A DNA stretch of 64,000 nucleotides from Halomonas cerina (GTDB taxonomy: Bacteria; Pseudomonadota; Gammaproteobacteria; Pseudomonadales; Halomonadaceae): positions 62,001 through 126,000 of the forward strand of contig NZ_JACHXP010000002.1 of assembly GCF_014192215.1 (NCBI RefSeq). The letters run 5' to 3'. The notes under the pieces were generated by a model. The model did no database searches. It saw only the letters and a program-made list of their open reading frames with translations, and was not told the DNA's origin. Below, piece by piece: positions 30,710-39,109 of the stretch. Every line of letters starts with the position of its first letter. Within the stretch, counting starts at the first letter, position 1. Made by a program: the position numbers and the translations under genes.

Positions 30710-32731
30710 TCAGGGACCCTCGTCGGCCTGCAGGCCGGTCGGTGGGATGCGGTCGGCTCCCCAGCTGCGATGGATATAGCCGATCACCCGGTCGAGTTCC
30801 TCCTGGGTGATCTCGGCAAGTTCCCCGCGCTCCAGCGGATCGTAGTGGAAGATATATAGCCGCGAGGCGAGCTGTTCGAAGGGCAGCGAAGATTCGCCGA
30901 AACGCTCACCGTGATCGGCCGTGCTGACCTTGATGCCGTCCCCCCAGTCCTGGCCGCTGTCGTTGTTGGGGTTGAAGAAGTAGACCCGCATCACGTCATT
31001 GGGGTCGAGGTTGACCCGCAACAACGTGATCGCATGCCAGCCGATGAAGCGGGCCGCGCTGTCGGTGACGGCGATACCGGCGGGTTGGGGATGGATCAGC
31101 GGCTGATTGCCGTTGTAGAAGGGGTGGTAGCTGGCATAGAAGTGACGCAGGAAGTCGTCCACGTCATGGAGGTGGCCGGTGGTCACGTCGACGTTGATGC
31201 GAAAGCCGCGTCCGGCCCACCAGCCATGGAATTCCGGGTTGACCCAGCGATGAGGGTCACCCTCGCGACCGGCGCAGCGTCGCCCCATCTCGGCATAGAT
31301 GCGGTCCAGATGCGGCACCACGATCAGCGAGACCGGATCGAGGTCCATGGGCAGGGTCTGGGCCACGCCGGAGAGGCTCGCCATGGAGGACAGGGGCATG
31401 CCCTCGAAGTGCATGATGATCTCGTCATCCCGCGCGGCCCACGTCACCATCTGCAGCAGATAGTCCGGATCGTTGTAGGCCCACATGGAGAGCGCCCGGG
31501 CCGACTGGCAGGTGGGGTTGTTGCCCTGTCCCACGCCCAGTGGCAGGCCAAGCATGCACAGTACCCCTTCCAGCAAGCGTGCCCGGGGCGAGATGCTCTC
31601 GCCGAAGGCCAGGTTGAGGCGTGCCTGGGACCACTGGGAGAGGGTCAGGCTCAGCTGGCGCCAGAGCGCCGGTGCCACCGGGGGCTGGTAGAGGATGCCG
31701 CGCTCGAGCGTCAGCGCCAGTCCGTAGGCCGCCTGAGCCGTGGCGGGGTAAACCCCGCCACGGATCAGGGCGTGGACCAGCTCGCGATAGCACATCAGGC
31801 AGTCGCGCCCGGTCGAGGAGAGACCCAGGGCCTCGGCCAGCAGGTGGTCGCTGTGGTCCAGCAGGTGGCGCAGCAGCACCGGGTGGTAGGCCGAGACCAG
31901 CCCCGTATCGTGCATGGCCCGGGCGAAACCCGTGGCCTCACCCTGCAGGGCGGCGGTATCCATGCTCGACAGTCGGTCCCGGTAGACCTCGAGCCCCGGG
32001 TCCTCGCGGCAGGCCCGGGTGGTGCCGAACAGCGAGCTGACCAGCCGATCGGCCCCCTGGCCGCTGATCCCCAGGTCGATCTCGGGGTTGGTCTGGCAGA
32101 TAGCGATCTGGGTGATCATCTGTTTGACCGGATCCGTCTGGATCGGGCGCTGCTCGAGGATGCGCCAGATCTCCTCGATCAGCTTGTCGATGATATGTTC
32201 ATAGCCGATACGCTCGGCGAGGTGTCGAAACAGGTTCCTCGGCAGCTGCGCCAAGCGGCCCTGGGTCTCGCGTTCGGCCTCGGTGGGTGCCCCGAAGAGC
32301 AGCCACAGGTTGATGGCCATCACCTGGGTCAGATAGTGATGAGCCTGCTCCTGCGAGACCTGAGGATGCAGGTAGTCTCCCTTGGCCACGGCCAACAGCC
32401 GCAGCTCGCTGAGGGCCTCGATCACGACCGAGTTGGGGTCGGCGCTCTTCAGGGCATGGGTCGTCAACGAGGGGACCAGGTACTGGGGCGTCGCCCAGTC
32501 GGAGCCCTGGAAGACCCCGGCTTGCTCCATTGCCTGGGCACGGGCTTCCAGAGCGGCAGCGCCGTCAGGCTGAAGCAGTACCTGGCGTGCGGTTTCCAGC
32601 ACCTTGGGTAACGCGCCGGGCTTGAAAAAGGTCGGCGCCTGCGAAAGCAGGCGCACGTCATCATCGAGCTTGGCCAGCAGGCCGTCGAGCTTGTCATCCC
32701 CGGGGGGGAATGCGCGATTGTCAGTCGTCAC
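30710..32731 (-). CDS. Uncharacterised ~673-aa protein with papain-like signature (paralogue A)
   Basis: I do not recognise this family. The product is soluble, with no signal peptide or membrane segment. It is a full-length paralogue of the protein at 33206-35188, sharing blocks such as LLAVAKGDYLHP, ACREDPGLEVY, LGVGQGNNPTCQS-ALSMWAY, WAARDDEIIM and FFNPNNDSGQDWG. The C-terminal half has a papain-like order: Gln402, six residues later Cys408 (the papain Gln19-Cys25 spacing), His566 in GWHAIT, and Asn587 in NPNNDSGQDWG, after a strand as in the papain NSWGxxWG block. The N-terminal ~390 residues are mostly helical. GTG at 32731 is preferred because AGGGAG lies 5 nt upstream and it gives residue numbers matching the paralogue; GTG at 32746 is the alternative. 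It lies upstream of tlyA (4-nt gap) and is divergent from ffs. Cysteine-hydrolase or transpeptidase activity is inference. Confidence 0.7.
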   Translation of the reverse strand: MTTDNRAFPPGDDKLDGLLAKLDDDVRLLSQAPTFFKPGALPKVLETARQVLLQPDGAAALEARAQAMEQAGVFQGSDWATPQYLVPSLTTHALKSADPNSVVIEALSELRLLAVAKGDYLHPQVSQEQAHHYLTQVMAINLWLLFGAPTEAERETQGRLAQLPRNLFRHLAERIGYEHIIDKLIEEIWRILEQRPIQTDPVKQMITQIAICQTNPEIDLGISGQGADRLVSSLFGTTRACREDPGLEVYRDRLSSMDTAALQGEATGFARAMHDTGLVSAYHPVLLRHLLDHSDHLLAEALGLSSTGRDCLMCYRELVHALIRGGVYPATAQAAYGLALTLERGILYQPPVAPALWRQLSLTLSQWSQARLNLAFGESISPRARLLEGVLCMLGLPLGVGQGNNPTCQSARALSMWAYNDPDYLLQMVTWAARDDEIIMHFEGMPLSSMASLSGVAQTLPMDLDPVSLIVVPHLDRIYAEMGRRCAGREGDPHRWVNPEFHGWWAGRGFRINVDVTTGHLHDVDDFLRHFYASYHPFYNGNQPLIHPQPAGIAVTDSAARFIGWHAITLLRVNLDPNDVMRVYFFNPNNDSGQDWGDGIKVSTADHGERFGESSLPFEQLASRLYIFHYDPLERGELAEITQEELDRVIGYIHRSWGADRIPPTGLQADEGP

Positions 32732-32907
32732 GAGGACTCCCTTCACCTGGAGGTATGCTCAGAGATTATACATGGAAGTCGAGCTCTTCCTGGTGCTTCA
32801 GCAGATCACGGAGACCTTGATTAGGGCATCGCGGCGATATCTGACGCGTACCGAGCTCACTTGCTTGGCTTCAAATGAGAATCAGTCCCTATGTGCGATT
32901 GCCCTGC

Positions 32908-32936: not shown

Positions 32937-33010
32937 GCGTGTCACTCGACAAGTGCCTGATGCAGCATCGAGTTTTGATGTGATGCCGAACAATGGCAGG
33001 CATCTTTTAT

Positions 33011-33120
33011 GGTGGCCCCGTCGGTCCTCCCGCAACGCTAAACCGCAAACCCCGCCAGGCCCGGAAGGGAGCAACGGTAGTGGTGGATGCGTGTGCCGGG
33101 ATGTGGCTGTCGGGGCCGCC
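33011..33120 (+). ncRNA. ffs: 4.5S (SRP) RNA, small bacterial form
   Basis: About 110 nt. The 5' GGTGGCCCCG pairs with the 3' CGGGGCCGCC. The sequence follows the gammaproteobacterial 4.5S RNA closely: TCCTCCCGCAACGCTA near the 5' side, the domain IV core CAGGCCCGGAAGGGAGCAACGG with its GGAA tetraloop and asymmetric loop for Ffh binding, and GTGTGCCGGGATGTGGCTGTCG on the 3' side. It is the RNA component of the signal recognition particle. It lies between two divergent paralogues, and its 3' part recurs in degraded form at 36871-36943. Confidence 0.96.
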
Positions 33121-33205
33121 TCCATTCGTACTGTTCCATTCGTACTGTTCCATGGTCTGTCGGCGCGAGATTGACATGTTTCGGGATAGGATGGAAAGTG
33201 AATGA

Positions 33206-35188
33206 ATGAGCATATACGATCCCGACCCCCATGATGACAGCGCGCCAGGCGAGTTGGTAGAACGGCTCGACGCCGCCATCGAAGGGCTTGCCGCTGCCAA
33301 TGCGAATGGGGGGGTCTCGCCCGTTTTCGAGGTTCTCGATCCGGCTCGGGACTTGATGTTCGATGCCAAGGGGCTAGACGTGCTCTACGCACGCGTTCCG
33401 GCACTCGAAGCTGCCGGTTTCTTCCGTGGCAGCGACTGGGATCATCCCCAGACGCTGGTGCCTTCCTTGGCCTTCCGTACAGTGCGCTATGGCGACCCGG
33501 TAGCCACCGTGGTTGAGAGCCTGAGCCAGATTCGCCTGCTGGCTGTCGCCAGGGGCGATTATCTGCATCCCTCGGTCTCTGCGGAGCACGCTCATCACTT
33601 CCTTGCTCAGGTGATGGCCATGAATCTCGATCTCGTGGTCAGCGACCTGCAGGAGGGCGACCGTCTGCGACCGGACGGGCTGGGATACGCCGTACAGAAT
33701 CTTTATCACTACCTGCTTGAGCACCTGGGCTACGAAAATCTTCTCGAGCATCTGGTGGCCGAGGTGTGGCGAGTTCTGGCGCAACGCCCGGTGCAGGTCG
33801 ATGGCGTCAAGCACATGGTGACCCAGATCGCCGCCTGTCTGCACAAGCCAGATGCGGTGGTAGGCGAGGTCGGGGAGGATGCGTCGCAACTCATCGATGC
33901 CGTGTTCAGCCCCACGCAGGGCTGCCGTGAAGACCCCGGGTTGGATGTCTACGCCGAGCGGATTGCGGCCATGGACGACGCGACGCTGCTGCAGGAAGCC
34001 ATCGCCTTCGCACAGGCCATGCACAACACCGGTCTGGTATCGCCTTATATGCCAGGCTTCATACGTTACCTGCGCACCCGCTGGAACGCCTTGATCCCGA
34101 CCGCCCTGGGTCTCAGCTACACAGGCGCAGACGCCTTTCACTGTTACCCGGCATTGATTCACAAGCTGATCGATGAAGCCCTGTTTGCCGAAACCAGCCA
34201 GGCTACCTATGGTCTCGCCATGATGCTCGAGCGGGGCATCCTTTACTCACCGCCAGTCGCGCCGTCACTATGGCGCCAGGTGAGATTGACCCTGTGCGAC
34301 GCCGCCGCACAGAAGATCGTTGAGGTCTTCGGCACCCGACACTCTCCGGAATGTTTTTTGCTTGCCGACGTCCTCAACGTGCTCGGCCGTCCGCTGGGTG
34401 TGGGACAGGGCAATTATCCCACCTGTCAATCGACACGTGCCTTGTCAATGTGGGCCTACAATGCGCCAGATGTACTGCTTCGTAACGTGGCCTGGGCGGC
34501 ACGCGACGACGAGGTCATCATGCGTTTCGAAGGCGATAACATTTCCTCACGGGAGCTCGGGGCCGGTCTGGCAAGCGAGCCGCCCGTGGATGTGGACGCC
34601 GTCTCGCTGCTGACCGTCCCCCATCTCGATCGCATCTACTTCGAGATGGGGCGCCGCAGCGCCGGGCGCGGAGAAGATCCGCACAAGTGGGTCAATGCTG
34701 AGTTCCATGGGGATCAGGTCGGTCATGGGTTTCGTATCGCCGTCGATGTTTTCACGGGCGGGCTGAAGGATTTCGAGGGCTTCATCCGTGACTTCTATGC
34801 GGCCTACCATCCTTTCTACAATGGCAACCTCCCGGTCATCAATCCGCAACCTGCAGGTATCGCCGTGACCGACAGCGCCACACGCTTCCTCGGCTGGCAT
34901 GCGATCACGATCCAACGCCTTGCCCTTGATCCGAGCCGGGACATGCGCGTGTATTTCTTCAATCCCAATAACGACAGTGGGCAAGACTGGGGACAAGGAA
35001 TCGTCACCTCGACCCAAGGCCATGGCGAGCTTTACGGGGAGGCTTCACTGCCCGTTGCCGAGTTCGCCGCGCGGCTTTACGTCTTCCACTATGATCCTCT
35101 CGAGAAGGGCGACCCGGCCGAGGTCCCTGCCGATGAGGTATACAGAGCCATGCGCCTGGCTCAAGAGAGCTGGGCGATGGGGCGATAG
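33206..35188 (+). CDS. Uncharacterised 660-aa protein with papain-like signature (paralogue B)
   Basis: A 660-aa soluble protein, paralogue of the gene at 30710-32731 and colinear with it over nearly the whole length. Function unknown. The papain-like residues are Gln401 and Cys407 (VGQGNYPTCQSTRALSMW), His565 (GWHAITIQ) and Asn586 (FFNPNNDSGQDWG). Identical stretches in the two paralogues cluster round these positions, which supports an active site. An acidic, disordered-looking N-terminus (residues 1-20) differs from paralogue A. It lies 85 nt after ffs. A perfect TTGACA at 33171-33176 is present, but a -10 at normal spacing would put the start of transcription at or next to the ATG. The G+C content is somewhat lower than in flanking genes. 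It is followed by a 262-bp gap and an ATP-grasp gene, probably its functional partner. Confidence 0.72.
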   Translation: MSIYDPDPHDDSAPGELVERLDAAIEGLAAANANGGVSPVFEVLDPARDLMFDAKGLDVLYARVPALEAAGFFRGSDWDHPQTLVPSLAFRTVRYGDPVATVVESLSQIRLLAVARGDYLHPSVSAEHAHHFLAQVMAMNLDLVVSDLQEGDRLRPDGLGYAVQNLYHYLLEHLGYENLLEHLVAEVWRVLAQRPVQVDGVKHMVTQIAACLHKPDAVVGEVGEDASQLIDAVFSPTQGCREDPGLDVYAERIAAMDDATLLQEAIAFAQAMHNTGLVSPYMPGFIRYLRTRWNALIPTALGLSYTGADAFHCYPALIHKLIDEALFAETSQATYGLAMMLERGILYSPPVAPSLWRQVRLTLCDAAAQKIVEVFGTRHSPECFLLADVLNVLGRPLGVGQGNYPTCQSTRALSMWAYNAPDVLLRNVAWAARDDEVIMRFEGDNISSRELGAGLASEPPVDVDAVSLLTVPHLDRIYFEMGRRSAGRGEDPHKWVNAEFHGDQVGHGFRIAVDVFTGGLKDFEGFIRDFYAAYHPFYNGNLPVINPQPAGIAVTDSATRFLGWHAITIQRLALDPSRDMRVYFFNPNNDSGQDWGQGIVTSTQGHGELYGEASLPVAEFAARLYVFHYDPLEKGDPAEVPADEVYRAMRLAQESWAMGR

Positions 35189-35450
35189 CCAAGATCTTCT
35201 CGGTTGTTTGGAAGCCAGCGGCTCCGGGGCTGTCGTTTTCCATTCTTTGGTAGGTAAGCTATATTGGTTTGAGTGGCTGGGTCATGTCGGTTGAGCGTAT
35301 CGGCCCTTCGTGAGCTTTCACGTGGCGTTGTGTATTGCTTGCGCTGGGCCATGGGAGCCATCTGAAACGACGATGTCTGGCGGTTCAGTCCATCGAATAC
35401 GCCCCGACCTGAGTGCCAATTTTCCGCACAGACCGTAAGGAGCACATCGA

Positions 35451-36758
35451 ATGTCGATAACATCAGAAACTCCCTTGTCTTCGGAGCTTGCAGCCTGGGT
35501 CGATCAGACACTGGACTCGGTTCGCGGAACGGAAGCTCCCAAGGATCCAAAAAAAGGCTATATCGCCCTGCTTGGCTGGAGCCTCAATGCCGTCAAGGCG
35601 GCGCAGAAGTTTGACCGTCGCTACGTGGTCGTTGCGCCCGAATGGGCGACGGATTTCTGCAAGGCAAACAAGATTCCCTTCATTGCCTGGGATTTCATAC
35701 GTCTGAACGATCGATCCATGGAGATCGCCGAAAGACTTAAAGAAGAGGGCGTCGATGTCGCCATCCCCCTGTTCGAGGAAACCGTCGAATGGTCAGGCGC
35801 GATCAACTCCGTGCTGATGGACAGCCCTCGCATGTACGGGCAATCCATCCTGTTTCGCGACAAGGCGCTGATGAAGCGCCGCGCCCAGCTGGGTGGCATT
35901 CGCGTGGGGATCTTCGAGGAGGCACACGAGAAGGAAGACGTCGTTCGCTTCATGAAGCGCGTCAACCAGACGCTGCTCAAGCTTGACGGCGACCCCGATG
36001 ACCCGATTCACGTCAAGGCATTCGACAAGGCCGGCTGCCTCGGTCATCGCATGATCCGCAAGATGGAAGAGATCGAAAATATACCGGATGAAGAGTATCC
36101 ATTGTTGATGGAAAGTCACCTGGACGGCTGGGAGTTTGCCGTCGAGGCCTGGATCCACAATGGCAAGATAAAGTTCTTGAATATTTCCGAATACGTGACA
36201 TTGGGCTATTCGGTATTCGTTCCCGCCACCAAGGAACTCGAGAGCTGGCGCGATGCCATTACCAAGCAGATCGAGAAGTTGATCAAGACGTTCGATATCC
36301 AGTTCGGCCTGATTCATCCCGAGTACTTCGTGACGGCAGACGGCGAGATGTATTTCGGCGAGGTCGCCTATCGTCCACCCGGGTTCAAGGCCTTTGAGCT
36401 CATCGAGCGCGCCTACGGATTCAGTGCCTATCAGGCATCGATGCTGGTTTTCGATCCCAAGAGCACCAAGAAGGAAGTCGATGAGTTCTTCCCCCGTGAA
36501 GTGGTCGATGCGAAGGGCTATGCCGGTTGCTTTGGCGTATACCCGAGACGCCGTGTCGTCAGCAAACTGGAGATGCCCAAGGAAACCATTGAGCACCCGT
36601 ATTTCGACTATCACGAGCTGGTCGCGCCAGTCGAGGAGACGGTTCCGGATCGTTCGGCCTTCGGTACGCACTGGGGCCTTGTGTTCTTCTTTGGTGACGA
36701 TCCAATCAGGATGCGGGATCTGCTCAAGGCCCAGGAGGAGCTGGACTTCTATGTCTAG
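35451..36758 (+). CDS. ATP-grasp family carboxylate-amine ligase
   Basis: A 435-aa enzyme of the ATP-grasp superfamily. An N-terminal Rossmann-like domain (GYIALLGWSLNAVKAAQKF, then YVVVAPEW) is typical of pre-ATP-grasp domains. The grasp core follows: the Lys-containing TLLKLDGDPDDPIHVKAFDK, LMESHLDGWEFAVEAWIHNG (the E..LxGxExxVE strand pair) and the metal-binding end MYFGEVAYRPPGFKAFELIE (E-x-A/N-x-R). The layout is that of enzymes joining a carboxylate to an amine, such as L-amino-acid ligases; substrates are unknown. TAAGGAG lies 9 nt before the ATG. The base composition is unlike its surroundings: the 60 bases from 36061 contain only 24 G or C. It probably arrived together with gene B and is followed by an SRP RNA remnant and a terminator. 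Confidence 0.82.
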   Translation: MSITSETPLSSELAAWVDQTLDSVRGTEAPKDPKKGYIALLGWSLNAVKAAQKFDRRYVVVAPEWATDFCKANKIPFIAWDFIRLNDRSMEIAERLKEEGVDVAIPLFEETVEWSGAINSVLMDSPRMYGQSILFRDKALMKRRAQLGGIRVGIFEEAHEKEDVVRFMKRVNQTLLKLDGDPDDPIHVKAFDKAGCLGHRMIRKMEEIENIPDEEYPLLMESHLDGWEFAVEAWIHNGKIKFLNISEYVTLGYSVFVPATKELESWRDAITKQIEKLIKTFDIQFGLIHPEYFVTADGEMYFGEVAYRPPGFKAFELIERAYGFSAYQASMLVFDPKSTKKEVDEFFPREVVDAKGYAGCFGVYPRRRVVSKLEMPKETIEHPYFDYHELVAPVEETVPDRSAFGTHWGLVFFFGDDPIRMRDLLKAQEELDFYV

Positions 36759-36852
36759 TGATTCGGTTCATACCGTCTCTATCCTAGGTTGCATCCAGGT
36801 TAAATGTTGACTGCTGGCAGGGCTTGAGCCCTGCCTATGTATGAAGTATGAA

Positions 36853-36943
36853 CTGCCGTCCTGGACAGCAACCCCCGCCAGGCCCGGAGGGGGAGCAACG
36901 GTAGCGGCAAAGACGTGTGCTAGATGCGGCTGTCGGAGCCGCT
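36853..36943 (+). pseudogene. Degenerate partial copy of the 4.5S RNA gene
   Basis: The segment from 36871 aligns with the last ~72 nt of ffs. CCCCGCCAGGCCCGGA is identical, then GAGCAACGGTAG, CGTGTGC and GCGGCTGTCGGAGCCGCT with changes and small gaps. The tetraloop region is altered (GGAA has become GGAG with an extra G) and the matching 5' closing strand is missing, so it cannot fold as SRP RNA. It sits 3' of the ATP-grasp gene in the same orientation as ffs. It is probably the other end of an insertion or duplication at ffs. Confidence 0.8.
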
Positions 36944-37007
36944 TCCCTTCCGGATCCATCCCCCTGGTTTTCCTTGACCTACCTCGGCGATTTCCAAGGG
37001 AATTGCT

Positions 37008-37030
37008 GCCGTGGATTCACGGCGTTTTTT
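37008..37030 (+). terminator. Rho-independent terminator after the SRP remnant
   Basis: A 6-bp G+C-rich stem (GCCGTG / CACGGC) with loop GATT is followed by GTTTTTTCTCTT. This is the best classical terminator in the window and lies on the plus strand. It would end transcription of ffs, gene B and the ATP-grasp gene together. It may be the original ffs terminator, displaced by the insertion. The rest of the gap 36759-37365 holds only the SRP remnant and a palindromic element. Confidence 0.8.
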
Positions 37031-37217
37031 CTCTTGTCCAAGCACTTGGATAGGATCGTTGGGTCAGCGTTGACGGAGTGCCGCCCTGCGTTGCTCCAGG
37101 CAAAGGTGGCAGCAGATCTTCCGATCTGCCAGTACAGGCTCCTCGCCTAAGAACTTCTTTCACAACCCATTGGGCATAAGGCTTTTCCGTCGACAAGACC
37201 CGAAGTGTCGGACCATC

Positions 37218-37301
37218 ACGAGGGCGCTGTAAACCCCTCCCTGGGCGCTACCTTTGCCATCCATGGCAAAGGACCCTCGCTTCGTCTTGCCCCCGGTGCC
37301 C
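37218..37301. repeat. Dispersed palindromic intergenic element, copy 2
   Basis: Matches copy 1 at 1567-1655 in the same orientation. The core 37251-37272 is a perfect 22-bp inverted repeat centred on GCCATCCATGGC. The pairs next to the core (T-A, T-A, T-A) replace G.A mismatch, A-T and C-G of copy 1, so pairing is kept while sequence changes. Downstream both share a GCCCC/GGTGCC-type block. Confidence 0.75.
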
Positions 37302-37365
37302 ACCATTGCTGGGGGTTTGGAAATGAGCTCTAAACGATTGGGCAACACAGCTGGGCCGTCGGTGA

Positions 37366-38118
37366 TCATTGCGGACTGGGAGCGCCAGGCATGCCCTGAC
37401 GGAGCCGCTTGCGCTGTTCATCGGTCAGCAACTCCTGCATGGCGTTATGCAGGCGAACCCTGTCGGCCATCATCGTACCTTGAAGTTCGGCCAGTCGCGT
37501 GTGGATACGCTGCACTTCCTTGGGGTCGGGACGTTCTTGCTGCATAAGCTGTGTCAGCTCCTCGCGCAGCTTATGCACTTCCTCCATGCGGCCTTGCTGG
37601 ACGGCATGGTATTGCTGACGCAGTTCCTGCATGGTACTGCGCTGCTCGTCATCCAGCAGTTGCCAGAGTCCACTACCGGCACCACCTCCCATTGCACCGG
37701 GGCCCATCTGGCCGTAGCCCGGCCCCATCATGCCGGGGCCCATCTGGCCGTAACCCGGCCCCATCATGCCGGGGCCCATCTGGCCGTAACCCGGTCCCAT
37801 CATGCCGGGGCCCATCTGGCCGTAACCCGGTCCCATCATGCCGGGGCCCATCTGGCCGTAACCCGGCCCCATCATGCCGGGGCCCATCTGGCCGTAGCCC
37901 GGCCCCATCATGCCGGGGCCCATCTGGCCGTAGCCCGGCCCCATCATGCCGGGGCCCATCTGGCCGTAACCCGGTCCCATCATGCCAGGCCCCATCATGC
38001 CGGGGCCCATCTGGCCATGGCCCGGCCCCATCATGCCGTGGGCATGGGCGATCCCGGTGCCGGCGATCCCGAGGGTGAGCGCTAGGCCCAGGGCAAGCGT
38101 CTGTCGGCGAGTGCTCAT
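37366..38118 (-). CDS. Spy/CpxP-like periplasmic protein with Met-Gly-Pro repeats
   Basis: A 250-aa exported protein. The signal peptide (TLALGLALTLGIAGTGIAHA) is followed at once by nine copies of a 12-residue unit, Met-Met-Gly-Pro-Gly-Tyr/His-Gly-Gln-Met-Gly-Pro-Gly: eight with Tyr and the first with His. The C-terminal ~115 residues are helical and end with the LTxxQ-type motif LLTDEQRKRLRQ; an earlier DDEQRSTMQELRQQY is a second such motif. Spy/CpxP proteins are periplasmic chaperones or stress sensors, and relatives bind metals. The Met-rich repeat may bind copper or other soft metals; this is inference. ATG at 38118 is chosen for its AGGAG site; an ATG seven codons upstream is less likely. 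Confidence 0.8.
   Translation of the reverse strand: MSTRRQTLALGLALTLGIAGTGIAHAHGMMGPGHGQMGPGMMGPGMMGPGYGQMGPGMMGPGYGQMGPGMMGPGYGQMGPGMMGPGYGQMGPGMMGPGYGQMGPGMMGPGYGQMGPGMMGPGYGQMGPGMMGPGYGQMGPGAMGGGAGSGLWQLLDDEQRSTMQELRQQYHAVQQGRMEEVHKLREELTQLMQQERPDPKEVQRIHTRLAELQGTMMADRVRLHNAMQELLTDEQRKRLRQGMPGAPSPQ
37698..38035. repeat. 36-bp in-frame tandem repeat array (about nine units)
   Basis: Nine near-identical 36-bp units, each containing CCCATCTGGCC on the plus strand, encode the Met/Gly/Pro repeats of the Spy-like protein. Units differ mainly by third-position changes (GTAGCCCGGCC or GTAACCCGGTC), so the array has expanded recently and may vary in number between strains. Confidence 0.9.
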
Positions 38119-38386
38119 GATCCAACTCCTCTCTGGCATAGGGAAGCGTGTGGCGGTGATGGTCGTCAGGTGATGACAGGGCTGCCGGTGCAGGGGATGC
38201 GCGGGCAGCGATCCTCAGCATAGTTCAGCCTGGTGGGATACGGTTTGATGAGCGTCAAGGGCTGGCTACTGTCGCAACATCATGCAGGTCGCCGATGCCA
38301 TATGCAGGTATGCTCCCTATCAGAAGCCCTTGGCGACAAGGCCGGGGCTGGGCCCGGGATAGAGGACGCGTCACGAGGAGGGCGAC

Positions 38387-39109
38387 ATGAACGCCAGGAG
38401 CATTTTCGAGCAGTTGATGAAACAAGCCGCGGGCGGCGGCCGCCAGGGCGGAGGGCTGGATGTCCAGAAGTTGATGGGCAGTGTCTCCTCGAGCCTGGGC
38501 GGTGGTTCGACCTCTTCCGGCCGCAAGGGCCAGGAGAGCGGTGTCGACATGAAGAGCTTGTTGGGTGGCGGTGCCCTGGGAATGCTGGTCGGCTCCAAGC
38601 GGGGCCGCAAGCTCGGTGGCAAGGCCCTCAAGTACGGCGCCATCGCCGGCGTCGGCATGCTGGCCTGGAAGGCCTGGCAGAATGCGCGCGACGGCCAGTC
38701 CGCCGATGAGGCCCGGGAAGGCCGGCCCATGGAGCGGCTTGCGGGCCAGTCCCAGGAGGAGCGGAGCCTGGAGCTGTTGCAGGCGGTCATCATGGCGGCG
38801 CGGGCCGACGGTCACATCGACGATCAGGAACGCGCCCTGATCACCGAGCAGATCGATGCCCTGGGGGCCGATGCCGAACTCCACGACTGGGTGGAGCGCC
38901 AGCTGCAGGCGCCGCTGGACGCCGAGGCCCTGGCCCGCCAGGCCGACTCGCCCCAGGCGGCTCGGGAGATGTATCTGGTCAGCGTGGCGGTGATCGATGA
39001 CCAGAACCCCATGGAGCGCGCCTGGCTCGACCAGTTGGCCGATGCCCTGGGGCTCGAGGCTGCGCTCAAGGCGGAGTTGGAACGCCAGGCCGTGGAAGCC
39101 GAGGGATAA
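38387..39109 (+). CDS. DUF533/YebE-like TerB-domain membrane-associated protein
   Basis: A 240-aa protein. The N-terminal ~75 residues are Gly/Ser-rich and disordered. A Gly-rich hydrophobic stretch follows ([12 protein letters not shown], then [17 protein letters not shown]), probably a membrane segment. Residues ~125-235 are a TerB-like helical domain ([19 protein letters not shown] and [16 protein letters not shown]). This is the YebE/DUF533 arrangement; E. coli YebE is induced by envelope stress. It is 11 nt before cysK and may be read with it. The 268-bp gap before it shows no gene. Confidence 0.85.

Follow-up and report, generated by a model that had tools for sequence, protein, structure and literature searches.

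The gene for the small RNA of the signal recognition particle (SRP), ffs, is followed in Halomonas cerina by a two-gene block, at the far end of which lies a damaged piece of the same RNA gene. How did the block come to stand there, and was ffs the point of entry, as an earlier note on this DNA had proposed? The locus was analysed within a stretch of 64,000 nucleotides (hereafter, the window, whose genome has the code G000) and compared with loci of the same genus and of the family Halomonadaceae.

The block and its two boundaries

The left, attL-like boundary of the block is the intact ffs gene (33,011–33,120, plus strand), which matched the RF00169 profile over 33,019–33,115 at 72.9 bits (gathering score, 40) and showed an SRP-like fold (−61.3 kcal/mol). 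Five further features follow on the plus strand: the left junction (33,121–33,170), where the short sequence CATTCGTACTGTTC occurs twice in tandem and which, of 352 loci, matched only the window's own DNA; a motif (TTGACATGT...TAGGA; 33,171–33,205) that is conserved in alignments with relatives and travels with the block; pap2 (33,206–35,188), encoding a 660-aa protein without a Pfam or NCBIfam match that we call papain-like, a name with a weak basis; ATPg2 (35,451–36,758), encoding a 435-aa ATP-grasp ligase-like protein; and a hairpin (GGCAGGGC..GCCCTGCC; 36,816–36,835) that follows ATPg2 and that relatives conserve along with the block. Behind the ffs copy described below, the earlier note had recognized a terminator (37,008–37,030, plus strand); this hairpin with its T run indeed folds well (z −4.9 for 36,990–37,036) and is not conserved in relatives. 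It is followed by an LTXXQ-family gene (37,366–38,139, minus strand), within which a 36-nt repeat array at 37,676–38,035 encodes MGPGYGQMGPGM units, and by a DUF533 gene (38,387–39,109, plus strand; PF04391), which by synteny normally stands downstream of ffs in many relatives. Immediately upstream of ffs lies pap1 (30,710–32,746, minus strand), a native paralogue of pap2 (54% identical), whose usual partner, ATPg1, is missing in this genome.

The right, attR-like boundary (36,865–36,950, plus strand) is a decayed copy of ffs nt 32–117, that is, of nt 32–110 and 7 nt beyond. Aligned with 33,042–33,127, it is 80% identical over 86 nt with two 1-nt indels, in the same orientation. The alignment score was 50, against a maximum of 17 among 1000 dinucleotide shuffles, and blastn gave an E value of 2.5e-15; the copy, its place and its orientation are direct observations. 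The earlier note had placed it at 36,871–36,943, slightly short of its actual span, and had named a structure-based alignment as a check, which the copy passed weakly at best: RF00169 did not detect it at the gathering score, and under permissive Rfam settings the SRP model for archaea matched best, at 20.5 bits (E 0.008). The case for the copy is one of sequence rather than structure. It lacks the 5' arm, its fold is unlike that of ffs (z −1.3), and no homology to the 5' part of ffs was found ahead of it (49 of 1000 shuffles scored equally well). Since 10 of its 15 differences over the 79 positions of ffs nt 32–110 fall at positions (62 in all) that are invariant across 80 other genomes of the genus, the copy is a relic that does not work as an SRP RNA.

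The surroundings of ffs could be read in 80 of the 89 other genus genomes, with 0.4–15.9 kb covered on the 3' side; the nine outside this survey included genomes that were fragmented or had no ffs match. The presence of both genes behind ffs in all relatives had been named in the earlier note as evidence against an insertion, and neither pap2 nor ATPg2 was found downstream of ffs in any of the 80 loci within the stretches covered. Four relatives (G193, G165, G218, and G139) have ffs followed by DUF533, CysM, Cax, and DnaX, an order that the window shows after the copy; the LTXXQ gene between copy and DUF533 occurs in the window only, among the loci mapped. When 36,759–37,040 was searched against all 90 genus genomes, 87 gave at least one match and G000 alone gave two, while shorter second copies of ffs occur in G216, G212, G020, and G197. 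The prediction that strains lacking the block would have ffs directly followed by the terminator at 37,008 failed: 36,951–37,100 matched nothing in the 352 loci except the window's own DNA and one chance-level hit. The native flank agreed at 8 of 10 positions after the copy and at 6 of 10 after the intact ffs, a weak by-eye count on a consensus in which one deletion would narrow the gap.

ffs as an integration site in Halomonadaceae

A recombinase of one family was found immediately 3' of ffs in 10 of 275 genomes of the family (G041, G001, G197, G048, G020, G146, G152, and G158, and partially in G195 and G157). These genes were found by reading and tblastn and confirmed by Pfam, in which the two tested both contained PF00589 and PF20172 (DUF6538). 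In G158, the recombinase contains a stop codon and is separated from ffs by another ORF, which looks like an IS30 transposase. All eight long matches in the recombinase search with at least 53% identity lay at ffs, and matches elsewhere had at most 47%. Recombinase remnants after ffs were confirmed by tblastn only in G157, G171, G099, and G175; by eye, the sequence 3' of ffs in G222, G199, and G240 also resembles decayed recombinase starts.

Two ffs matches at E 1e-5 were present in 11 of the 275 genomes (G000, G212, G216, G001, G041, G059, G152, G264, G146, G148, and G158). Six of the ten other than G000 look like integration, with copies of 33–64 nt that are 95–100% identical and end at ffs nt 114–122. 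The remaining cases do not fit it: G264 has two near-complete ffs genes on two contigs, the 3' fragments in G059 and G212 (44 and 30 nt; L348 and L351) lie on other contigs, in surroundings common to both, and the second match in G216 belongs to a 412-nt repeat, for which a duplication and an artefact of assembly are both conceivable. The G216 copy (G216:C45:205874-205932, L322) runs from ffs nt 58 on and lies inside this repeat near a contig end. Altogether, far-end copies of the ffs 3' end were seen in eight genomes: G146 (64 nt), G152 (59 nt), G158 and G148 (56 nt each), G001 (34 nt, on another contig than its ffs), G041 (33 nt), G020 (22 nt), and G197 (19 nt). An exact-repeat screen of the 80 genus loci (at least 14 identical bases within the covered stretch) caught only G020. 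The far-end copies end at ffs nt 112–122, and that of the window ends at nt 117. Seven of the eight genomes have the recombinase at ffs; in G148, none was found there. The copies stand on the native downstream side of ffs, with DUF533 258 nt later in G197 and dnaX directly after in G041 and G001. Other cargo between ffs and a 3' ffs fragment, which the earlier note had suggested looking for, does exist: the G152 element, for example, spans 7.4 kb and holds the recombinase, a resolvase-like gene, and further genes. The 3' end of ffs is a working integration site in this family, as observed directly in these relatives.

The earlier note had also considered ffs not to be a commonly described attachment site, whereas published accounts exist for Pseudomonas and pneumococcus. 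In P. aeruginosa, a genomic island is described as flanked by identical SRP RNAs, with the SRP RNA as its preferred site (Botelho et al. 2018, PMC6299553); as described, it has copies at both ends like the window block, but with 19.8 kb, identical copies, and resistance cargo it differs otherwise. In pneumococcus, a prophage group (PPH015) is reported to attach at ffs, its attL and attR cores being near-identical (PMC8637289); unlike the window block, it is described as a prophage of approximately 39 kb with a 21-nt core, in an unrelated host. Our literature searches on integration at ffs or at SRP RNA genes listed no Halomonas paper.

The window block shares with the DUF6538 elements (G041, G001, G020, G146, G152, G197, and others) the left boundary at the 3' end of an ffs kept intact, the direct 3' copy of ffs in the same orientation at the far end, here scoring above all 1000 shuffles, and the native ffs neighbours beyond it, in the window DUF533, CysM, Cax, and DnaX. 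In those elements, the recombinase directly follows ffs, whereas the window has none: a search of 32,961–37,400, including the left junction, gave nothing better than E 0.1, and the whole genome had no match to the DUF6538-type recombinase at E 1e-10 and no close relative of this recombinase family. The absence of an integrase, observed in the earlier note, is borne out for the block and, for this type of recombinase, for the genome. An AT-rich motif (AATTGATTTTAAAGG) that follows the ffs next to the recombinase in G195, G197, and G020 at 19–21 of 21 positions is likewise absent after the window ffs (best, 11 of 21). Furthermore, the copies in those elements are near-identical and 19–64 nt long, whereas the window copy is older and longer (80% over 86 nt). 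The block therefore resembles an ffs-integrated element in its working, but because the recombinase is missing we do not file it as one; it is a decayed, integrase-less case and not a proven member of the group. The proposal of an entry at ffs with displacement of the old 3' end is upheld as far as the decayed copy next to the usual neighbours and the family-wide site are concerned.

The pap2-ATPg2 operon and its usual locus

The idea that the cargo was foreign to the genus did not hold, because 18 other genomes of the genus have a pap2 match of 83% or more that spans most of the gene, usually at another locus; ATPg2 was present in 25 others. The cargo is a genus operon and not exotic DNA, and close homologues occur in Marinobacter and other families. 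The lower G+C content reported for the two genes was confirmed, with GC3 values of 0.71 and 0.72 for the pair versus 0.83–0.88 in six nearby genes. As GC3 was also lower in pap2 than in pap1 in 13 of 14 other genomes (the exception being G177), the low G+C content is a property of the operon and gives no date for the insertion.

The usual locus is recognized by an upstream neighbourhood common to 13 relatives (12 with full blocks, and G235) and lies 48–104 kb downstream of ffs in nine genomes with block and ffs on one contig. In the window's genome, this locus, 73 kb downstream of ffs, is empty by direct observation: 39 nt separate a hydrolase gene from the next gene, the one that stands behind ATPg2 in G221. 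Four genomes of one clade (G181, G183, G195, and G197; L122–L125) carry the operon approximately 11 kb upstream of ffs, between YhiN and DUF883, which is a second relocation. The spacer between the two genes is 290–315 nt in this clade, 265 nt in the window, and 85–90 nt in most others; the long spacer showed no homology to the region upstream of ATPg1. In the pap2 tree, the window falls with the G181 clade (96/61), which it does not in the ATPg2 tree, both trees being only partly resolved. A second ATPg2 copy (87%) lies away from the block in G181 (G181:C1:1467930-1469234).

Among 79 genus genomes with full-length pap1, nine lack ATPg1, and all nine have ATPg2, versus 16 of the 70 that have ATPg1 (Fisher p 1e-5, which overstates the association since the genomes are related). 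The nine fall in about five places on the genome tree. The ATPg2 cargo may have replaced the native ATPg1 beside ffs.

Origin of the block and predicted roles of its genes

The reading that we prefer, with a probability of roughly 0.55, is that the block is what is left of an old integration event at the ffs 3' end, which brought in a relocated genus operon. An element would have integrated at this end, restoring an intact ffs on its left and displacing the original 3' part (nt 32–117) to its right, where it would have decayed to 80% identity. All mobile parts would subsequently have been lost, leaving the upstream motif, pap2, ATPg2, and the operon's own terminator. The cargo probably arrived as a second copy of the genus operon; this lineage would then have lost the one at the usual locus, as well as the native ATP-grasp gene beside ffs. 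That a recombinase made the insertion is our inference, as is the sequence in which these losses occurred. Several findings speak against this reading: the recombinase and the AT-rich motif are missing, the native flank after the copy is only weakly visible, four of the ten other genomes with a second ffs match do not fit, the cargo contains nothing typical of a mobile element, and the 86-nt copy exceeds every att-like copy seen (19–64 nt).

In an account without a recombinase, DNA with the operon, either incoming or chromosomal, entered a break in ffs by illegitimate or homology-assisted capture, and a long duplication of the target arose on repair. Apart from 43 and 29 nt of other DNA at its two ends, the block reaches no further than its own upstream motif and the terminator of the operon, and 32,961–37,400 holds no recombinase trace, both as such a capture would have it; it leaves unexplained, however, why one boundary lies no more than 10 nt from the 3' end of ffs, the very spot of recombinase-bearing elements in relatives, and we consider it rather unlikely. 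A 5'-truncated ffs copy such as the one seen would also be left by a tandem duplication from pap2 to ffs, followed by deletion of the first pap2-ATPg2 and of the second gene run up to a point inside ffs, giving ffs, pap2, ATPg2, and truncated ffs. The G181 clade offers a starting point, with a co-oriented operon approximately 11 kb ahead of ffs and a similarly long spacer. This duplication from the YhiN site was attractive at first and was downgraded by the species tree, in which the window's genome is an outgroup to the G181 clade as well as to seven genomes whose block lies elsewhere, and by the adjacency of YhiN and ParA, which it shares with G052 and which bears no scar of a block. That the break hit precisely the 3' end of ffs would moreover be coincidence, and such a duplication appears improbable.

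That the ffs copy is kept as a functional small RNA or a regulatory 3' UTR of the operon is highly improbable. Its apical sequence (CCCCGCCAGGCCCGG) is preserved, but none of 29 other ATPg2 loci has such a copy beside the gene in blast searches, and the changes at 10 of 62 genus-invariant positions and the lack of an SRP-like fold (z −1.3) also argue against a function. An extension of the integration reading, which we regard as doubtful, treats pap2-ATPg2 as a compact travelling operon that left its usual locus for the YhiN site in one clade and, in the window's genome, for ffs. The latter move would be due to an ffs-specific recombinase that either worked in trans or has since disappeared, and the operon would then have replaced the ATP-grasp partner of pap1, with the host now dependent on it. 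If so, the scar of an attachment site would have turned into the seat of an operon that the host needs.

With the family-wide findings, the SRP RNA gene emerges as a recurrent landing site across a whole bacterial family, of which the window block would be a worn-out and datable example, and the relocated operon is linked to the disappearance of the native ATP-grasp gene next to it. Whether the two ATP-grasp genes are redundant thereby becomes testable, as does the pathway of a widely kept gene pair that has no name.

The predicted products may have a peptide-related role. ATPg2 had a borderline Pfam match (PF13535, 27.2 bits; cut-off, 27) and resembles the L-amino acid ligase 4wd3 (E 4.2e-4), its own predicted model being poor (pLDDT 50.9). 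The predicted model of pap2 (pLDDT 70.2) had papain-like proteases as 14 of the 50 Foldseek matches listed, with none of 254 matches at E < 0.001. Cys407, His565, and Asn586 of pap2 are invariant in 24 sequences and are putative catalytic residues. The pair suggests a ligase and a hydrolase that would make and trim a peptide-like bond. A third class of papain-like paralogues, approximately 58–61% identical to pap2, was observed at L044–L055 and similar loci.
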